This document shows positions 4,756-11,102 of a stretch of DNA of 21,606 bases, in pieces; the first letter of the stretch is position 1; every line of letters starts with the position of its first letter. The notes beneath the pieces are model-generated. The model did not search any database. It saw only the letters and a list, made by a program, of their open reading frames with translations, and was not told the origin of the DNA. The translations under genes were made by a program, and so were the position numbers. The stretch covers positions 1 to 21,606 of IMG/VR virus record IMGVR_UViG_3300028829_004942, one strand, 5' to 3'. The stretch comes from a virus.

Positions 4756-5723
4756 TCCTGTACCATGCCTATGCAAACACCCCGTAGTCCGGGCCCGGTA
4801 AAAGGACACGGCTTGGGATGCTTAGTAAAGTCTATCTTAGTTACTGCACCCTCGAGAAGCTTTAGCATAGCGTAATTGTACGCGCCAAAATGCGGAAGCC
4901 CTTCATAGGCTATTGCTGCACCAGAAGTTTCTAGATGCCCGGCAACAAGCCCATCTTCCGTAAACCGTACACAACCTTTACGGTCAGCGTTTTCAGCAAA
5001 AGGCTTGAGCTTGTCTAGTGTCTCATAAAAGCCTTCAGGCAATGGGGTTAAGTTAGCGTTCTCAAAGCCTTTATCGACCAAAGCGTCCACGTCAGGCCAT
5101 TCGGGGTCCAGTAACTGAGTCCGTAGCCAGCGTTCCCCAAAGTAAAACGTAGCCGAGTTTTTAGAGAGAGTTATTCTGGTGGGTTCTTGCCCAATCCGAA
5201 TAAGCGCATCAATCGCGGACGCGGGTATTGTGATGTTAGGCATGGGTTCACCAATCCAATGCTGCCCAATAATGATATTATTAGTCGCATAAATAGACTT
5301 GTCACGGACAAGTACGCCCATAGCCCAAGGCCGAGAAGCATCAACACCAATAAAAGGACGGACTGTACGCAAAGCTTGAACAAATGTACTAGGAAGCTTA
5401 ACATCATTGCCTTCAGGTTTAATGCTACGCAATACGTCGTATTCTTCGGTGCATTCAACAGTTGCCCTAAAAGAGCCAGACCGGACGCTAATACGCCCGG
5501 CCTGTGTTAAATTCAAAACAACTTGCTCGTCACAACGCTCAATGGCCTTAACAAAGGTGTCAGCTTTAGGTGCAGCTTGGACATCTAGGTCAATGGGTGA
5601 GCAAAGAGCTATAGTTCCGTTATAGCTTTTGATATGCCCGTCAGCTATTAGGAAATGTGTAAGCTCCGCTTGGTAATCTTTTTTTGAAACTGCACCCTTT
5701 ACAAACTTAAGCGCCTGCAACAT
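4752..5723 (-). CDS. dnaN: DnaN-like DNA polymerase sliding clamp
   Basis: This ~323-aa protein resembles the shortened beta-clamp homologues of phages. It opens with LQALKFVKGAVSKKDYQAELTHF, followed by repeated beta-alpha-beta-type units such as GRISVRSGSFRATVECTEEY, NITIPASAIDALI and YEGLPHFGAYNYAMLKLL. Clamps encircle DNA and hold the polymerase; the polymerase gene follows directly with a GTGA overlap, which supports the assignment. I prefer the ATG at 5723, which overlaps the upstream gene by 17 bases. An in-frame start at 5765 adds 14 residues encoded wholly inside the upstream gene. No obvious Shine-Dalgarno precedes 5723, so coupling to the upstream gene is likely. Clamp-loader genes are not seen in the window. 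Confidence 0.75.
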   Translation of the reverse strand: MLQALKFVKGAVSKKDYQAELTHFLIADGHIKSYNGTIALCSPIDLDVQAAPKADTFVKAIERCDEQVVLNLTQAGRISVRSGSFRATVECTEEYDVLRSIKPEGNDVKLPSTFVQALRTVRPFIGVDASRPWAMGVLVRDKSIYATNNIIIGQHWIGEPMPNITIPASAIDALIRIGQEPTRITLSKNSATFYFGERWLRTQLLDPEWPDVDALVDKGFENANLTPLPEGFYETLDKLKPFAENADRKGCVRFTEDGLVAGHLETSGAAIAYEGLPHFGAYNYAMLKLLEGAVTKIDFTKHPKPCPFTGPGLRGVCIGMVQE

Positions 5724-6102
5724 TGTAGTTAATCCAGTAGAAGGCGTCATCCAGGTCAGGTACAATCTGTGTCACATGGTACTCAACCCACGGACTCAAA
5801 GGCTTTCCTTGATAAACAAGCACAATGGGCTTACCTAGATCGTATGCGTAGATAATCTCCATACTGGTTCCTGCCGACGGTCCTTGCCAGTTAACCAGAA
5901 GCACATCGCTAAGCGTGATTTCTCTTTTGTCGAGAACTACAATGCTGCTTTGATTCTCTTGCTGTACACCCCTGTAGTCTCTGCGCATCGGATTAAAGAC
6001 GTCAATGCTGTACTGATCAGCAATCTCCGTGGCGTAACTGCGCCAACCCCGGCATTCGTCGTTAGTCTTTTCAAAGATTGGCCCACATAGATAAACACGC
6101 AT
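5707..6102 (-). CDS. Nucleoside 2-deoxyribosyltransferase-like / deoxynucleotide N-hydrolase-like protein
   Basis: This 131-aa protein has the family's landmarks: an N-terminal VYLCGPIF strand-loop (residues 3-10), VFNPMRRDY (~35-43), SDVLLVNW (~65-72) and PSAGTSMEIIYAYDLGKPI (~75-93) with the putative catalytic Glu82. Members either move 2-deoxyribose between bases (NDT) or hydrolyse the N-glycosidic bond of deoxynucleotides (DNPH1/Rcl-like); the sequence does not decide which. It starts at a TAATG overlap with the DpdA stop and overlaps the clamp start by 17 bases, so it is tightly embedded between DNA modification and replication genes. A role in handling bases or deoxynucleotides around 7-deazaguanine modification is inference. 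Confidence 0.75.
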   Translation of the reverse strand: MRVYLCGPIFEKTNDECRGWRSYATEIADQYSIDVFNPMRRDYRGVQQENQSSIVVLDKREITLSDVLLVNWQGPSAGTSMEIIYAYDLGKPIVLVYQGKPLSPWVEYHVTQIVPDLDDAFYWINYNVAGA

Positions 6103-7004
6103 TAGAACAATAGCTCCTGTTCGACAGTAAAACGGTCCGTAGCAGTTTCTGACATCATACTATATGTAACCATGTTGAAGCATTTACGAGTCAAATGCTC
6201 TTTACGCATTCGTGCGATGTCAAAACCAAGGTCTTCAATAATGCCGTAAAGAACGTCCCTGTGCTCCGGTGGCAAGTTATCAATGTGTTTGTCTTTTTCT
6301 TTTAACTGAGGTGCTAGTTCGGACACACTCATCATTCCCCACTTGGGAAAAAACACGTTTCCGATACCACCAAGCTGCACCCAAGACGAAGAATCCACCG
6401 AGTACCAAGGGTACCGCGCCATTAGAGGTATAGATGTTAACCCGAACCCGTGAACTTTCAGCTTTGGTGTACCATCTTTGTGCGTCATCCATTTGCCCCA
6501 AATCCTGTCTAGCCATATGCGCAACTGCGGTGTGGCGATCGGCACCATGCCGCCAATCGTAATGTATTCATAATGCTCCACATAGTAGGCCAAGACTTCT
6601 TCAGGCTCACCGTAGTGATAGCATGGCAGAACACTGATACCTTGTGATTCTATGTATTGCTGATTATGCCAAGTCCCGTCCGCGTCTCCAATAGCATCCA
6701 AAACAGATGCAACCTCTATCCATTCACTGTGCTCTTTGCAGTAAGCGCAGTAGGCATCTATATCCACGTCAATGCCTTGGGTAAAAGAGGAGAAAGCACC
6801 GGAATCTAAAAACACTTTACGTCCAGTTGTTTCCCAGTTGAACTTAACGCGCTCGATCATCCTAGGCTTATGGATGTAATGGTAAGAGTCGAGCAAGTAA
6901 GGAACTTCAAAGACAGCCCGTTTCTCGCGCTCATTAAGACGCGGCCAAAACGGGCTGCCTTCTCGGAAGTCGTTGTAAAGCAATGCTGCGAGATAGACTT
7001 TCAC
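6102..7004 (-). CDS. dpdA: DpdA-like DNA 7-deazaguanine transglycosylase (TGT-related)
   Basis: DpdA proteins are TGT-fold enzymes that replace guanine in DNA with preQ0 or a related base. This 300-aa protein shows the phage DpdA pattern: VFLDSGAFSSF (Asp67, nucleophile or base-recognition site), VLDAIGD (Asp103), YITIGGMVPI, KVHGFGLTS and YSVDSSSW (Asp204). The tRNA-binding zinc motif of bacterial TGT (CxCxxC...H) is absent, as in DpdA. Translation starts at GTG 7004 behind AAAGGA with a 6-base gap. It lies directly downstream of FolE, QueD, QueC and QueE, the preQ0 pathway, which makes the DNA-modification role strong. Which DpdA subfamily, and exactly which base it inserts, cannot be settled here. 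The preceding 39-base gap holds no gene. Confidence 0.88.
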   Translation of the reverse strand: MKVYLAALLYNDFREGSPFWPRLNEREKRAVFEVPYLLDSYHYIHKPRMIERVKFNWETTGRKVFLDSGAFSSFTQGIDVDIDAYCAYCKEHSEWIEVASVLDAIGDADGTWHNQQYIESQGISVLPCYHYGEPEEVLAYYVEHYEYITIGGMVPIATPQLRIWLDRIWGKWMTHKDGTPKLKVHGFGLTSIPLMARYPWYSVDSSSWVQLGGIGNVFFPKWGMMSVSELAPQLKEKDKHIDNLPPEHRDVLYGIIEDLGFDIARMRKEHLTRKCFNMVTYSMMSETATDRFTVEQELLF

Positions 7005-7043: not shown

Positions 7044-7961
7044 TCAGGGACCAAACAACCCTAAGAACTCGGCCCTTGCCGCAGTGTCAGTACGAAATAC
7101 ACCACGCAGAACATTTGTTACGGTCTCGCTACCCTGACGCTTAATGCCGCGACTCTCCATGCACAGATGTCTAGCACGGATAGAAACTGCTGCACCTCTT
7201 GGTTTAAGGTGGTCCATAAGAGCGTCAGCAACTTGCGTCGTTAACCGCTCCTGTACCTGAAGCCTGTTGGCAAATACGTCCAAAAGACGAGACAACTTAG
7301 ATAACCCAACAATCTTTCCGTTCGGGATGTACCCTATGTTTGCTGTTCCAAAGAACGGAGCGAGGTGGTGCTCGCAATGGCTGTAAAAAGGAATGTCTTT
7401 TACCACTATCATTTCGTCGTACGTTTCTCCCCCGTCTTCGAATTCCTTAAGGACGGTTGACGGGTCCACATTGTACCCGGAACTCCAGTGTTGCCAAGCT
7501 TTAGCAACCCGACTGGGGGTTTCCAGTAAACCACCCCGTTTGGGGTTTTCGCCTATTTGTTGGAGCAGGCGAGTTACGGTAACTGTGATGTCGCCCTCTA
7601 CATCTTGGTGCTCCCAAGGAAAGATTACCCAGGAGTCAGCAAACTCCTCAGTGCGTTGCTTGTTCACCAAAGCGTAGAAGGGTGTGGTCGGGCAGATGTT
7701 ATCGTAGTGACGCAATGTGTCACCGCTGTCGATAATATCGTCTAAGATAAAATCAGCTTGGTGCGGATTGCTTCTCATTGTAATGCTCGGCTCTTGTCCG
7801 GCAGTTACAATCTTCAAAATGTAAGACGCCGGTACACCCCCTCGCGGAACAGCAAAACAGGTGAGTTGGGTACGGCCAGGAAATTGCTGGCGCAAAGCTT
7901 TGGCCACGCCTTCTGCGTAAAGCGTCAGGTCGTTAAACTTTAGGTGATGTACTTTGCTCAT
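7044..7961 (-). CDS. folE: Fusion: Gpt-like phosphoribosyltransferase + GTP cyclohydrolase I
   Basis: This is a two-domain protein of 305 aa. Residues 1-118 form a type I phosphoribosyltransferase: FAVPRGGVPAS (36-46), the PRPP loop ILDDIIDSGDT (72-82) and SWVIFPWE (110-117). The last resembles the WIEQPW base-binding segment of E. coli xanthine-guanine phosphoribosyltransferase. Residues ~125-305 are GTP cyclohydrolase I: GENPKRGGLLETPSRV, SHCEHHLAP with zinc ligands Cys196 and His199, SKLSRLLDVFA, and Cys267 in HLCMESRGI. FolE converts GTP to dihydroneopterin triphosphate, the first step toward preQ0. Its usual length (~180-220 aa) is covered by the C-terminal domain alone. The start is ATG 7961 after AAGGAG with an 8-base gap. 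Guanine recycling by the first domain is inference. Confidence 0.93.
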   Translation of the reverse strand: MSKVHHLKFNDLTLYAEGVAKALRQQFPGRTQLTCFAVPRGGVPASYILKIVTAGQEPSITMRSNPHQADFILDDIIDSGDTLRHYDNICPTTPFYALVNKQRTEEFADSWVIFPWEHQDVEGDITVTVTRLLQQIGENPKRGGLLETPSRVAKAWQHWSSGYNVDPSTVLKEFEDGGETYDEMIVVKDIPFYSHCEHHLAPFFGTANIGYIPNGKIVGLSKLSRLLDVFANRLQVQERLTTQVADALMDHLKPRGAAVSIRARHLCMESRGIKRQGSETVTNVLRGVFRTDTAARAEFLGLFGP

Positions 7962-7977: not shown

Positions 7978-8442
7978 TTATGCGAACAAAGGTTCGTCGA
8001 GCCATTGGCCAAGTACAAACGTCGCAGAGCATTTACGGGTTTCTTCTACAGTCACAGCGGTCAGTATTACGTCTGTGTCAGCCAATACTTCCGGGCCAAT
8101 AGCGAGAACTAGGTACTCCGCCATATTCTCTGCCGTCGGGTTAAACGGCACCGTCACAACGCTCGGCGCTAGTGCCCCCTTACGGGTAAAAGCTTCAAGC
8201 ACTTCCGTATCCTCGTCCCAGAGAATCATTCTGTGGTCCCAGTTGTCTTCAAGCCACTGGCAAAGACGCTCTTTCATTACACTGAAGTCAATAACCCGGC
8301 CGACGCTGTCTAACCCTTTAGCTTCACAGGTAAAATAGATTCTGTAGTTATGGCCATGAAGCCAACGGCACTTGTTCTCGTGCCCCTTTACTCGATGCCC
8401 GGCTGAAAAATCGTGGTACCGAGTTACCTTGTGTGCGCCCAT
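7978..8442 (-). CDS. queD: 6-carboxy-tetrahydropterin synthase (QueD)
   Basis: QueD turns dihydroneopterin triphosphate into 6-carboxy-5,6,7,8-tetrahydropterin, step two of the preQ0 pathway. The 154-aa protein has the family zinc ligands His16 (SAGHR), His29 and His31 (LHGHNY), the catalytic Cys25 (KCRW), and the Asp69-His70 (NWDHRM) and Glu133/134 (TVEET) positions. I chose ATG 8442 because it overlaps the queC stop (TAATG) and has GGAG 7-8 bases upstream; an in-frame start at 8490 would add 16 residues inside queC and lacks support. It ends in two consecutive TAA stops just before the Shine-Dalgarno site of the FolE fusion gene. Confidence 0.95.
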   Translation of the reverse strand: MGAHKVTRYHDFSAGHRVKGHENKCRWLHGHNYRIYFTCEAKGLDSVGRVIDFSVMKERLCQWLEDNWDHRMILWDEDTEVLEAFTRKGALAPSVVTVPFNPTAENMAEYLVLAIGPEVLADTDVILTAVTVEETRKCSATFVLGQWLDEPLFA

Positions 8443-9266
8443 TATAAATCTCCGAGTTTGCGAGCCAATGCAACAACTTGAACGGACCATGAGACACGTT
8501 GTAGTTGTTCCTGGACGAAAGGTTTATTTAAATCATAGATTGGGTTGTCCGGCAAATCGTGGCCAAATAGATGAGCTCTTAGCCACAGCGGGTCAGGGCA
8601 CCCCGCCTCCTCGAAACCTTTCTCCCGTAGCAGTGTTGCATGATCGTTGCCCATTGGCGGGAATTGACCGTCGTAAGCGGTGTGGGTGTATGCCAGAGCT
8701 TCATAGCAGTTTCCGAGGTTCATAGCAAGCTCTACAGTCTTTCGCTTGTCAAGCTTCATTAACGGTGTAATAACCTGTAGCCCAGAAGGGGCTCCGTCTT
8801 CACCAGTAAACGTGCCAAGTGACGAAACCTCAGCAAACGCTGTAATAAACTCTTGGCGACAGTCAGGGTACCCGCCGTAGTCTTCACCAGACACCCCAGT
8901 AATGATGTTCGTAATTCCCAAGTTGTACGCTCGGTTGGCGGCAACCGTTAAAAAAAGTTGGTTGCGCATAGGCACAAAAGTCTTTTCTAGCCCTTCTGGC
9001 AGAACATCGTGGCTATCATACTGTTCGAGTTCGTTATCGGATACAAGAGGCGAGGTGCCTTTAAGGATATCGAAACCGAGGTTTACAAACTCGTGTGACT
9101 CAACACCGGCAAGCACACCCACGATCTTCGCGGCTTGCATCTCAATGTTATGTCTTTGTCCGTAACCAAACGTAATAGCGTGAACTTCGTCGTAATGCTG
9201 CATTGCCCAGTAAAGGCAAGTAGTCGAGTCTTGGCCACCCGACAGAACAACTAAACAGGCACTCAT
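8442..9266 (-). CDS. queC: 7-cyano-7-deazaguanine synthase (QueC), zinc cysteines replaced
   Basis: QueC uses ATP and ammonia to convert 7-carboxy-7-deazaguanine to preQ0. The 274-aa protein has the PP-loop SGGQDS (9-14), TFGYGQRH (32-39), FVPMRNQLFL (97-106) and GVSGEDYGGYPDCRQEF (124-140), all typical. The normal C-terminal zinc site, of the form SCY-x-G followed by CG-x-C-xx-C, is present as a frame but with every cysteine changed: Ala197, Met205, Asp208 and Thr211. The flanking Tyr-x-Gly, Pro-Pro and Arg-xx-Gly-Phe anchors are kept, so this is not a frameshift. The start is ATG 9266 (ATGA overlap with the upstream stop); a GTG four codons earlier sits on its own Shine-Dalgarno and is less likely. 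Confidence 0.93.
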   Translation of the reverse strand: MSACLVVLSGGQDSTTCLYWAMQHYDEVHAITFGYGQRHNIEMQAAKIVGVLAGVESHEFVNLGFDILKGTSPLVSDNELEQYDSHDVLPEGLEKTFVPMRNQLFLTVAANRAYNLGITNIITGVSGEDYGGYPDCRQEFITAFAEVSSLGTFTGEDGAPSGLQVITPLMKLDKRKTVELAMNLGNCYEALAYTHTAYDGQFPPMGNDHATLLREKGFEEAGCPDPLWLRAHLFGHDLPDNPIYDLNKPFVQEQLQRVSWSVQVVALARKLGDL

Positions 9267-9529
9267 TGTTTCTGCCACCCTTTGTCGAATTGGTCAATAG
9301 TTATAATCCGCTTTGGTTCAGCGTCTGCATAATAAGGTGGTTGGATCATAACCCATCGACCACCGACACTTACCGTAGCTTCAAGGGCAGTTCGTCCTAC
9401 CACTACGCCTTCGAGGTTGTCTTGCAGCCGTCTTATATGGTCGCCTACGTTCCAGATGTAAATGCCGTTTGACGTTTCTTCGGGCAGCACTCGATCGTAA
9501 TGCCAGTCCCATTCTGTTCCTGTGCTCAT
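9263..9529 (-). CDS. Conserved-position hypothetical protein (88 aa)
   Basis: I do not recognise this protein. It is acidic and soluble, with a Trp-rich N-terminus (EWDWHYD) and beta-type segments (GIYIWNVGDHIRRLQ, VVVGRTALEATVSVGGRWVMIQPPYY), suggesting a small beta-barrel. It sits inside the preQ0 gene run, joined by ATGA overlaps to queE upstream and queC downstream. It is therefore translated with the pathway and may serve it or regulate it. No metal or nucleotide-binding motif is visible. Confidence 0.7.
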   Translation of the reverse strand: MSTGTEWDWHYDRVLPEETSNGIYIWNVGDHIRRLQDNLEGVVVGRTALEATVSVGGRWVMIQPPYYADAEPKRIITIDQFDKGWQKQ

Positions 9530-10248
9530 GGTAACCCCACAATCTTGTGCATCTGTACACCAAGAATCATTGGTCCAATCCAGTTACCGGTTCCGTTCAT
9601 TACCGCATTAACAGCAGCTTTGTAATTGTTCTCATTTAGCCGGGTACTGTACTCGTCCATAGGGTTGATGTACACCTCGCCAACCCACCCGACCGGTGGC
9701 CTAGCCACAGTTCTGCCCTCGGGCAGCGGGTGGTGCAAGGCACTGATTGGAAGTCCGTCTTCGGCTACGTTGCTTTCACAGATAACGTACTTGTACACGT
9801 GCGCTGCTTTAGCAGTCATAGGGTGTATCTTGGCCGTCTTTGGGCTCACAACAAGAGTAAATCTTTCGTCGTCAAACGGCAGTCCAGTAGACGGAGCAAA
9901 AACACCATTGCTCTCTACTTGAACGTTATAGCCCTGACTTATTAGATGCCAAACTGTTGCGGTAATGTTCTGGCGAAAAGGTTCGCCCCCGGTAATTACA
10001 ATCAAACCAGCGCTGTGCCCGGTATCCCGAACTTGCCGGGCAATCATATCTGGCGTCAGCTTTAGCAAACTGTCCGTGTACTCTGTGTCGCATCCCGGGC
10101 ACTGAAGATTGCAACCGTGCAGTCTAATAAAGACTGCCGGATGCCCGGCATATGGGCCCTCTCCTTGGATAGTTAAAAAGATAGAATGCACGTCCAACGT
10201 GCCTACATCTTCTTGGGCCGGAGGGAGAGGTGTCTGAGTATTAAGCAT
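9526..10248 (-). CDS. queE: 7-carboxy-7-deazaguanine synthase (QueE), radical SAM
   Basis: QueE is the radical SAM enzyme that contracts the pterin ring of 6-carboxy-tetrahydropterin to 7-carboxy-7-deazaguanine. The 240-aa protein has the substrate-side motif FLTIQGEGPYAG (24-35), the 4Fe-4S motif HGCNLQCPGCD with Cys46, Cys50 and Cys53 (CxxxCxxC), and the SAM-binding VITGGEP loop (~88-94). The start ATG 10248 has GAGGA with a 4-base gap. It is the first que gene transcribed, just after a strong hairpin, and couples through ATGA to the 88-aa gene. Extra residues before SIFLTIQ (1-21) are slightly longer than in many bacterial homologues. Confidence 0.95.
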   Translation of the reverse strand: MLNTQTPLPPAQEDVGTLDVHSIFLTIQGEGPYAGHPAVFIRLHGCNLQCPGCDTEYTDSLLKLTPDMIARQVRDTGHSAGLIVITGGEPFRQNITATVWHLISQGYNVQVESNGVFAPSTGLPFDDERFTLVVSPKTAKIHPMTAKAAHVYKYVICESNVAEDGLPISALHHPLPEGRTVARPPVGWVGEVYINPMDEYSTRLNENNYKAAVNAVMNGTGNWIGPMILGVQMHKIVGLP

Positions 10249-10335: not shown

Positions 10336-10614
10336 TTATGCAGCAGCCTTTTCAGGAGCTTTGCGCTTCGAAGCGAGGCCGTGAAACTGCCGCCACCGTC
10401 CATACTGCGTAGCAATCGTGGCCTTGTTCAGCCCCTCTGCTTCGGCCTTTGCCATAACAGCGCCGCGACCAATCGGCTCGCCAGAGGCTTCCGAGAGTTC
10501 ATCGGCAATGGCCCACACACGACCCGTCAATGTACCGTCCTTCGGGCGAGTGATTCCGTTGGCTTGTGGCTGCTTAGGCTTTGCCTCAGCCGCTTCTTCC
10601 TTCTTCTTGGCCAT
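10336..10614 (-). CDS. Small basic HTH-like protein, paralogue 1
   Basis: This 92-aa protein has a Lys/Ala/Glu-rich flexible N-terminus (1-25) and a compact helical domain from TGRVWAIADEL to ATQYGRWRQFHG (~29-78). The domain is shared with the next gene upstream and with the partial gene at 21177: a VWA-type first helix, an EGLNKATIATQY recognition-like helix and a terminal aromatic-basic patch. The composition (Lys-rich tail plus small helical domain) suggests DNA binding, perhaps nucleoid-like or regulatory; the family is not recognised. It starts at ATG 10614 behind a strong AGGAGG with a 5-base gap, so it is probably well expressed. It follows its paralogue after a 62-base gap and precedes a strong hairpin. 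Confidence 0.75.
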   Translation of the reverse strand: MAKKKEEAAEAKPKQPQANGITRPKDGTLTGRVWAIADELSEASGEPIGRGAVMAKAEAEGLNKATIATQYGRWRQFHGLASKRKAPEKAAA

Positions 10615-10676: not shown

Positions 10677-11102
10677 CTACTTACTTTTCTTCCAGCGATA
10701 ATACTGTGTCTTAGCTGTAGACGCATTAACACCGTCGGCAATAGCGCGCTTAACCATTTCGTCACGCATTGCCGTAGTAATCTTTCCTTCTACAGCGTTA
10801 AACATTTCGTCACAAAGAGCCCATACCACCTCAGTAGGCTTACGAACCTTACTGCGATTGGCTGACCGCGAAGAGCCTTCACCAAAGCTTTGCTCGTGAT
10901 ACTCTTCGGCTACACATGGGGAAACTTCTGTGCTGTGCGAGACGGAAGTACGTTCCCAACCGTTCCCTTCGTGACGTGGTACGTGAACAGTTACAGAACC
11001 AAGGCCAACACGTTCTACCCTACCCGCACGCTGCCCGTAAGGACGCCAAGGGTAAATAAAAGTGTCGCCTTCAACAAGTGACCCTAATGGTACGATCTTC
11101 AT
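10677..11102 (-). CDS. HTH-like protein with N-terminal beta domain, paralogue 2
   Basis: This protein of 141 aa has two parts. Residues 1-~50 look like a small beta-barrel (VPLGSLVEGDTFIYPW, GRVERVGLGSVTVHV). Residues ~92-141 repeat the helical module of the downstream 92-aa protein: VVWALCDEMF, RDEMVKRAIADGVN and STAKTQYYRWKKSK. The two are linked by a Ser/Glu-rich stretch. A DNA-binding or regulatory role is inference from the module and the basic C-terminus. The start is ATG 11102 behind GGGAG with a 7-base gap, and a good promoter lies just upstream, so this gene heads the transcription unit that includes the que and dpdA genes. Confidence 0.75.
   Translation of the reverse strand: MKIVPLGSLVEGDTFIYPWRPYGQRAGRVERVGLGSVTVHVPRHEGNGWERTSVSHSTEVSPCVAEEYHEQSFGEGSSRSANRSKVRKPTEVVWALCDEMFNAVEGKITTAMRDEMVKRAIADGVNASTAKTQYYRWKKSK

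Follow-up and report, generated by a model that had tools for sequence, protein, structure and literature searches.

Gene cluster and QueC homolog of the window

The window, i.e., the whole stretch of DNA that was analyzed, is a virus record of 21,606 bases from IMG/VR. Its minus strand carries a gene cluster of the preQ0 type, which comprises QueE, an open reading frame (ORF) of 88 amino acids, QueC, QueD, FolE, and DpdA, together with a polymerase processivity factor and a family A DNA polymerase. All positions of cluster genes given below refer to this strand. QueE (9526-10248) was identified by profile matches and contains the CX3CX2C radical-SAM motif. It is followed by the 88-aa ORF (9263-9529), for which no family and no relatives were found, and by a zinc-free QueC homolog (8442-9278), which was assigned as ATP-dependent 7-deazaguanine ligase based on Pfam and TIGR00364 profiles, an AlphaFold2 model, and a fold match. 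The next gene encodes QueD (6-carboxytetrahydropterin synthase, 7978-8442, profile matches); its ATG at 8442 overlaps the QueC stop codon, and the protein has the His and Cys residues that we take to be its zinc ligands.

FolE (GTP cyclohydrolase I, 7044-7961) was matched with 239.7 bits at residues 128-302. It has an additional N-terminal phosphoribosyltransferase-like domain, with a weak match to xanthine phosphoribosyltransferase at residues 69-117, and a match to this N-terminal part was found in 32 of 100 zinc-free loci (see below). The DpdA-type transglycosylase (6102-7004), which putatively inserts the base into DNA, was matched by phrog_887 with 213.6 bits and matches the DpdA of phage Iggy with 244 bits. 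It is adjoined by a gene for a nucleoside 2-deoxyribosyltransferase-like protein (5707-6102; PF05014, 46.7 bits), relatives of which were present in 6 of the 100 zinc-free loci. Elsewhere in the window, two ORFs next to each other, at 10336-10614 and 10677-11102, match the same PHROGs (phrog_7864 and phrog_18634) and possibly represent a tandem duplication.

The QueC protein has 278 amino acids when translation starts at the GTG at 9278, or 274 when it starts at the ATG at 9266. The latter overlaps the stop codon of the 88-aa ORF as ATGA and is the more likely start. Residue numbers are counted from the GTG at 9278 throughout, while those of the first-pass annotation of this DNA were counted from the ATG at 9266. 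The protein scored above the curated cut-offs of both families, with 184.3 bits for Pfam PF06508 (cut-off 22) and 173.9 bits for TIGR00364 (cut-off 150.3). Neighboring queD and queE genes, a feature of cluster 1 of PF06508, are present in the window (7978-8442 and 9526-10248), and the zinc motif of this cluster, C(x)8CxxCxxC, is absent from the window QueC.

The catalytic motifs, which are named in the accessible part of PMC13329287, were all recovered in the alignments. They are the PP-loop SGGQDS (residues 13-18, 9225-9242), the YxQxHxxE motif (YGQRHNIE, residues 39-46, 9141-9164), the VPxRN motif (VPMRN, residues 102-106, 8961-8975), and the YPDC motif (residues 137-140, 8859-8870). The essential tyrosine of the CYNG segment is also intact, as Y202 is the equivalent of Y189 of E. 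coli QueC. According to the same accessible text (PMC13329287), the E. coli enzyme is inactivated by the mutations Y35A, R99A, Y131A, and Y189A. The equivalent residues Y39, R105, Y137, and Y202 are kept in all 101 zinc-free sequences, and the same is true for S13, G14, G15, D17, and S18 of the PP-loop. The four motifs, K178, and Y202 are likewise present in 101/101 of these sequences, with the exceptions of V102 (100) and P138 (92).

Loss of the zinc site in a group of phage QueC proteins

The first-pass annotation had proposed that the window QueC has lost all four cysteines of the zinc site, and the alignments bore this out. The former zinc lobe (8634-8678) has A201, M209, D212, and T215 at the four cysteine positions, which correspond to residues 197, 205, 208, and 211 in the earlier numbering. 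It had also been proposed that the flanking anchor residues and the PP-loop are kept, which holds for the PP-loop and the essential tyrosine. The retained Pro-Pro turned out not to be a general QueC anchor, because among 95 zinc-type sequences P207 was present in only 14 and P208 in 36; some of the zinc-type phage enzymes closest to the window QueC do have it.

When IMG/VR was scanned with the window QueC, 54 relatives with 54-67% identity were obtained. In all 52 of these relatives that cover the site the cysteines are absent, and they have the motif HT[S/A/G]YDGx[Y/F]PPxxxDHA in common, with D203A in one sequence as the single exception. The selection on these genes was analyzed with six pairs of zinc-free sequences, for which dN was between 0.08 and 0.23. 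In the four pairs with finite dS, dN was 0.08-0.16 and dS was 0.94-1.31, while dS was saturated in the other two. The zinc-free QueC genes of the six pairs compared are thus under purifying selection. The absence of the cysteines from 52/52 relatives and the purifying selection rule out chance or a sequencing error. By sequence comparison it was confirmed that the loss reaches far beyond the contig of the window and is not a local oddity.

A second scan was performed with a mixed alignment and with search patterns outside the zinc lobe, and a scan of genome contigs and the QueC proteins of 25 named phage records were added as sources. After 39 duplicates had been dropped from 238 proteins, 199 were aligned. 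Left out of the counts were two loci in which the match stops before the site (L051, L053), one in which the frame stops before the site (L229), and the second QueC-like gene of Vibrio phage GR7B. L071, which is among the 25 named records, is labeled as a phage but contains genes of a bacterial chromosome, and it was counted among the zinc-type loci. The site was readable in 117 loci from viruses or named phages, of which 100 were zinc-free, 16 were of the zinc type, and one had three cysteines (L120); as these were the best matches ranked by likeness to the window, 100/117 is not a frequency or a census of phage QueC. Of the 79 readable genome-contig loci, 78 had kept the cysteines, and the exception was a locus of Adhaeribacter aerolatus (L168), which has a different replacement. 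Counts of 101 zinc-free sequences include the window and omit L120 and L168, while counts of 103 rows take in both. A viral scan using the zinc-type enzyme of GR7B yielded no matches.

The zinc-free group has essentially one replacement motif, HT[S/A]YDGxYPPxx[D/N]HA. Among named phages, zinc-free QueC proteins were found in Dinoroseobacter phage R5C, Pseudanabaena phage Pan1, Stenotrophomonas phage Bhz54, Achromobacter phage ART, Microcystis phage Me-ZS1, Sphingomonas phage MMDA13, Edwardsiella phage ZHS, Acinetobacter phage HD01, Rhizobium phages X3_2 and I36, Aminobacter phage Erebus, Pseudomonas phage Iggy, and Vibrio phage 83AMN. Zinc-type QueC proteins were found in Cellulophaga phage phiSM, Hafnia phage yong3, Escherichia phage GottfriedDienst, Mycobacterium phages Laurie and Saguaro, and Campylobacter phage CPt10. 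The possibility had been raised before that loss of these cysteines is common in active QueC enzymes; in the aligned sequences it is common within one phage group.

Three individual loci should be mentioned. The QueC of L120 (L120:4001-4717) has three cysteines (HTCYDGCYPPCPNNHAS) and a C-terminal extension, and is an apparent intermediate of the loss. The QueC of Iggy (L064:7001-8062) has 353 amino acids, more than any other phage QueC in the same alignment. GR7B (L066:6992-8582) has two adjoining genes that are annotated as 7-cyano-7-deazaguanine synthase; one of them encodes a zinc-type QueC, and the other is divergent.

It had also been considered that the zinc ligands might be placed elsewhere in the protein. 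This was not borne out, because the alignment of the 101 zinc-free sequences contains no new conserved Cys or His, and, thus, the metal site was lost and not moved. In comparison with the eight nearest zinc-type sequences (L119, L125, L127, L141, L143, L148, L160, and GR7Ba), the residues M104, D203, A219, P228, A235, P243, N247, and Y248 are fixed only in the zinc-free group, besides the ligand positions.

C-terminal tail, predicted structure, and evolution

P243, N247, and Y248 are the conserved positions of a C-terminal tail (residues 229-278, 8445-8594) that is typical of the zinc-free group and that the zinc-type relatives lack. P243 is present in 101/101 zinc-free sequences versus 2/8 of the nearest zinc-type sequences, and Y248 in 100/101 versus 0/8, indicating that the zinc loss came with a tail and not with a new substrate pocket. 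Position 247 is Asn in the zinc-free group and Ile in the window.

The AlphaFold2 model of the whole protein had a mean pLDDT of 93.4, and the blocks across residues 191-230 averaged at least 90. The window QueC is thus confidently predicted to keep the QueC fold without zinc. In the tail, helices were predicted for residues 230-237 and 253-275. VIA-align superimposed the model onto B. subtilis QueC (3bl5) with a Z score of 20.5 and 2.5 Å over 189 residues (range 5-228), and the scores were 20.3 for Cap9 (9nto) and 19.5 for Erwinia QueC (2pg3); the absence of a fold family from the matches excludes nothing. When residues 1-228 were modeled alone, the fold was kept and the mean pLDDT was 91.8. 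Without the tail the values fell from 96 to 92 for residues 191-200, from 90 to 84 for residues 201-210, from 94 to 91 for residues 211-220, and from 98 to 92 for residues 221-228. These drops in confidence are small, and the models weakly suggest that the tail supports the region of the zinc lobe structurally.

In a tree based on residues 8-195 (71 rows), the zinc-free phage rows, the eight zinc-type rows, and L120 formed one strongly supported group (100/99). A single clade made up of the zinc-free enzymes alone was rejected (p-AU 0.0026), as the zinc-type sequence L143 nests inside the zinc-free set. A clade of the zinc-free set together with L143 was not rejected (p-AU 0.26). This stretch is short of signal, with 25 of the 68 inner branches open and the bootstrap unsettled. 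A single zinc loss, after which L143 exchanged or regained the site, may explain this and is the reading we prefer; several separate losses within the phage group would also be compatible with the tree.

By its position apart on the tree, the Adhaeribacter sequence L168 is a separate zinc loss. The only full-length QueC of A. aerolatus is this zinc-free version with its different replacement (L168:3473-8652; L244:7258-13665). The surrounding island encodes QueD, a DUF6884 protein, NurA, a HerA-like ATPase (recognized by eye), and a protein with a weak TGT match (DpdA-like), and it is adjoined by an HNH endonuclease gene. A canonical TGT is encoded elsewhere in the genome, in which no match to the QueF family PF14489 was found.

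Product of the zinc-free enzyme and comparison with known systems

Among the 100 zinc-free loci, FolE was found in 93, DpdA in 83, QueE in 80, and QueD in 77, numbers that are lowered by fragments and short flanks. The QueC of the window would be one step of a phage pathway for 7-deazaguanine DNA modification (FolE, QueD, QueE, QueC, DpdA). We consider it probable that this QueC is active and synthesizes preQ0 for DNA modification independently of zinc. The zinc of QueC would then be mainly structural, and the lobe with the essential Y202 would be held not by metal but by protein packing, for which the Pro-Pro/Asp(Asn)-His loop and the newly gained tail would be responsible. Canonical QueC makes preQ0 from 7-carboxy-7-deazaguanine, two ATP, and ammonia; the zinc-free enzyme would still convert 7-carboxy-7-deazaguanine to preQ0 with two ATP. 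The base would then be transferred to phage DNA by DpdA and would shield this DNA from restriction enzymes. The first-pass annotation had left three readings side by side, i.e., an enzyme that works without zinc, a different product such as the amide, and a dependence on a partner. The first of these is the best supported one, given the shared loss, the retained catalytic residues, the predicted fold, and the presence of QueF.

QueF genes adjoin zinc-free queC genes in 18 of the 100 loci, and all of the encoded proteins have the Cys/Asp motif CPxTGxPD, which is presumably catalytic. No QueF was seen in the cluster of the window or in most zinc-free clusters. The phages R5C and Pan1 have a true QueF (105 and 110 bits, respectively) and a single PF06508 gene each, and, therefore, these phages themselves can provide the nitrile only through their zinc-free QueC. 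The DNA of QueF carriers would be expected to contain bases of the preQ1 type. All 13 named phages with a zinc-free QueC whose genomes were searched have this one PF06508 gene and no second one (13/13). The hosts of R5C and Pan1 may have a QueC of their own. P. aeruginosa has its own QueC, and the dPreQ0 of phage Iggy may stem from this host enzyme and not from the phage enzyme. Iggy has been cited for dPreQ0, as judged from the title of Olsen et al. 2023, and phage Knedl is described in excerpts of PMC11008142 as having dPreQ0 genes "similar to phage Iggy". Zinc is stated to be required for QueC function in the accessible part of PMC13329287, which counts against a zinc-independent enzyme. 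Rosebush, whose host is reported to be without a preQ0 pathway, was considered as a test case and was of no help, since the QueC of the related phage Laurie (Rosebushvirus) is of the zinc type.

The enzyme might instead stop at the amide, 7-amido-7-deazaguanine, if the dehydration in the second ATP step could not proceed without the zinc lobe; dADG would then be present in the phage DNA. Amide formation is the first half reaction of QueC, some phage DNA contains dADG, and the window has no visible QueF. Nevertheless, this reading is unlikely, as it is weakened by the nitrile-acting QueF with its intact motif beside zinc-free QueC in 18/100 loci and by the comparison of two phages: CPt10, which is listed as dADG-carrying in the accessible part of PMC8306585, has a QueC with all four cysteines, while Iggy, cited for dPreQ0, has none of them. 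In the few cases compared (CPt10, Iggy, and the QueF carriers) the loss of zinc is not accompanied by an amide product.

Somewhat less probable still is a metal site that was changed and not lost, in which His199, Asp203, Asp/Asn212, and His213 would bind another metal. These positions are indeed conserved in the zinc-free group (H199 in 100/101, H213 in 101/101, D203 in 98/101, and D or N at position 212 in 103/103 rows, including L120 and L168). However, the nearest zinc-type enzymes have conserved H213 (8/8) and H199 (7/8) to about the same extent, and, thus, these residues are not replacement ligands, the D/N exchange at position 212 is unlike a strict ligand, and new conserved Cys or His residues are absent.

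The protein encoded by the 88-aa ORF had been suggested as a partner that replaces the zinc, and its gene does adjoin queC with the ATGA overlap. It had no match in Pfam, NCBIfam, or PHROGs, and tblastn at a threshold of 1e-4 revealed a relative in none of the 100 zinc-free loci (0/100), the best other match, with E values up to 10 allowed, having an E value of 1.0. In addition, fewer than 80 bases separate QueE from the QueC match in 41 of the 59 measured zinc-free loci, so that a gene of this size would not fit between them. The ORF was, therefore, rejected as a partner, and this role is very improbable. A decaying, inactive queC gene, with preQ0 supplied by the QueC that many bacteria have, is the least probable of all in view of the low dN/dS and the catalytic positions kept throughout the zinc-free group. 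Zinc shortage as a driver for the whole pathway was also not favored, because QueD and FolE of the window presumably retain their zinc ligands.

Returning to a zinc-independent QueC, it may be asked why the zinc was lost. One speculative answer, which we regard as rather unlikely, is that the phage branch dropped zinc and gained the tail because it serves DNA rather than tRNA modification; the tail would dock on DpdA or another enzyme of the pathway and pass the product, be it preQ0 or the amide, on directly, and metal would have been traded for a protein contact. If this were true, the independent loss in the Adhaeribacter island (QueD, DpdA-like protein, HerA, NurA) would represent the same trend.

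A large natural zinc-free branch with otherwise identical active-site residues separates structure from catalysis. If its enzymes make preQ0, zinc is dispensable scaffolding; if the amide is their sole product, nitrile formation is linked to zinc. An annotation that relies on the zinc motif would miss these enzymes. No mention of a zinc-free phage QueC was found in the literature on QueC zinc, phage preQ0, and 7-amido-7-deazaguanine that was covered, and it may be mentioned elsewhere; the accessible text of PMC13329287 does not discuss phage QueC.

Among known systems, the zinc motif is absent from the LarE and GMP synthase clusters, as stated in excerpts of PMC13329287. Gat-QueC (9g type) belongs to the same phage pathway, but the 278-aa protein of the window has no glutamine amidotransferase domain in the profile search. 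The Gat-QueC of 9g is reported not to have restored queuosine in tRNA, although DNA modification was obtained with it (PMC6884629). Cap9 (type IV CBASS) and QatC, QueC relatives that deazaguanylate proteins, have a similar fold (Z scores of 20.3 and 15.7, respectively). In contrast to the window QueC, which is devoid of the cysteines, both retain the zinc site according to the accessible parts of PMC13329287 and PMC13279940. Their context, with a CD-NTase or qatA/qatB/qatD, is also absent, and the window QueC is located in a phage preQ0 cluster (FolE, QueD, QueE, DpdA) and not in a defense locus.

The likeness to canonical QueC (PF06508 cluster 1; B. subtilis 3BL5 and Erwinia 2PG3) includes Z scores of 20.5 and 19.5 with 39-42% identity over 189 residues, the PP-loop, the YxQxHxxE, VPxRN, and YPDC motifs, the essential tyrosine, and the neighboring QueD and QueE. 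The window protein differs in the absence of C(x)8CxxCxxC and in the extra conserved C-terminal tail, and because the zinc motif fails it is a zinc-free variant of QueC and not a canonical QueC. The zinc-type enzymes of the same phage group (L119, L125, L127, L141, L143, L148, and Vibrio GR7B) agree with it at almost every position that is specific to the group, H213 and E98 among them, but they have kept the four cysteines and are devoid of the tail. Thus, natural zinc-type and zinc-free phage relatives are available side by side for comparison.
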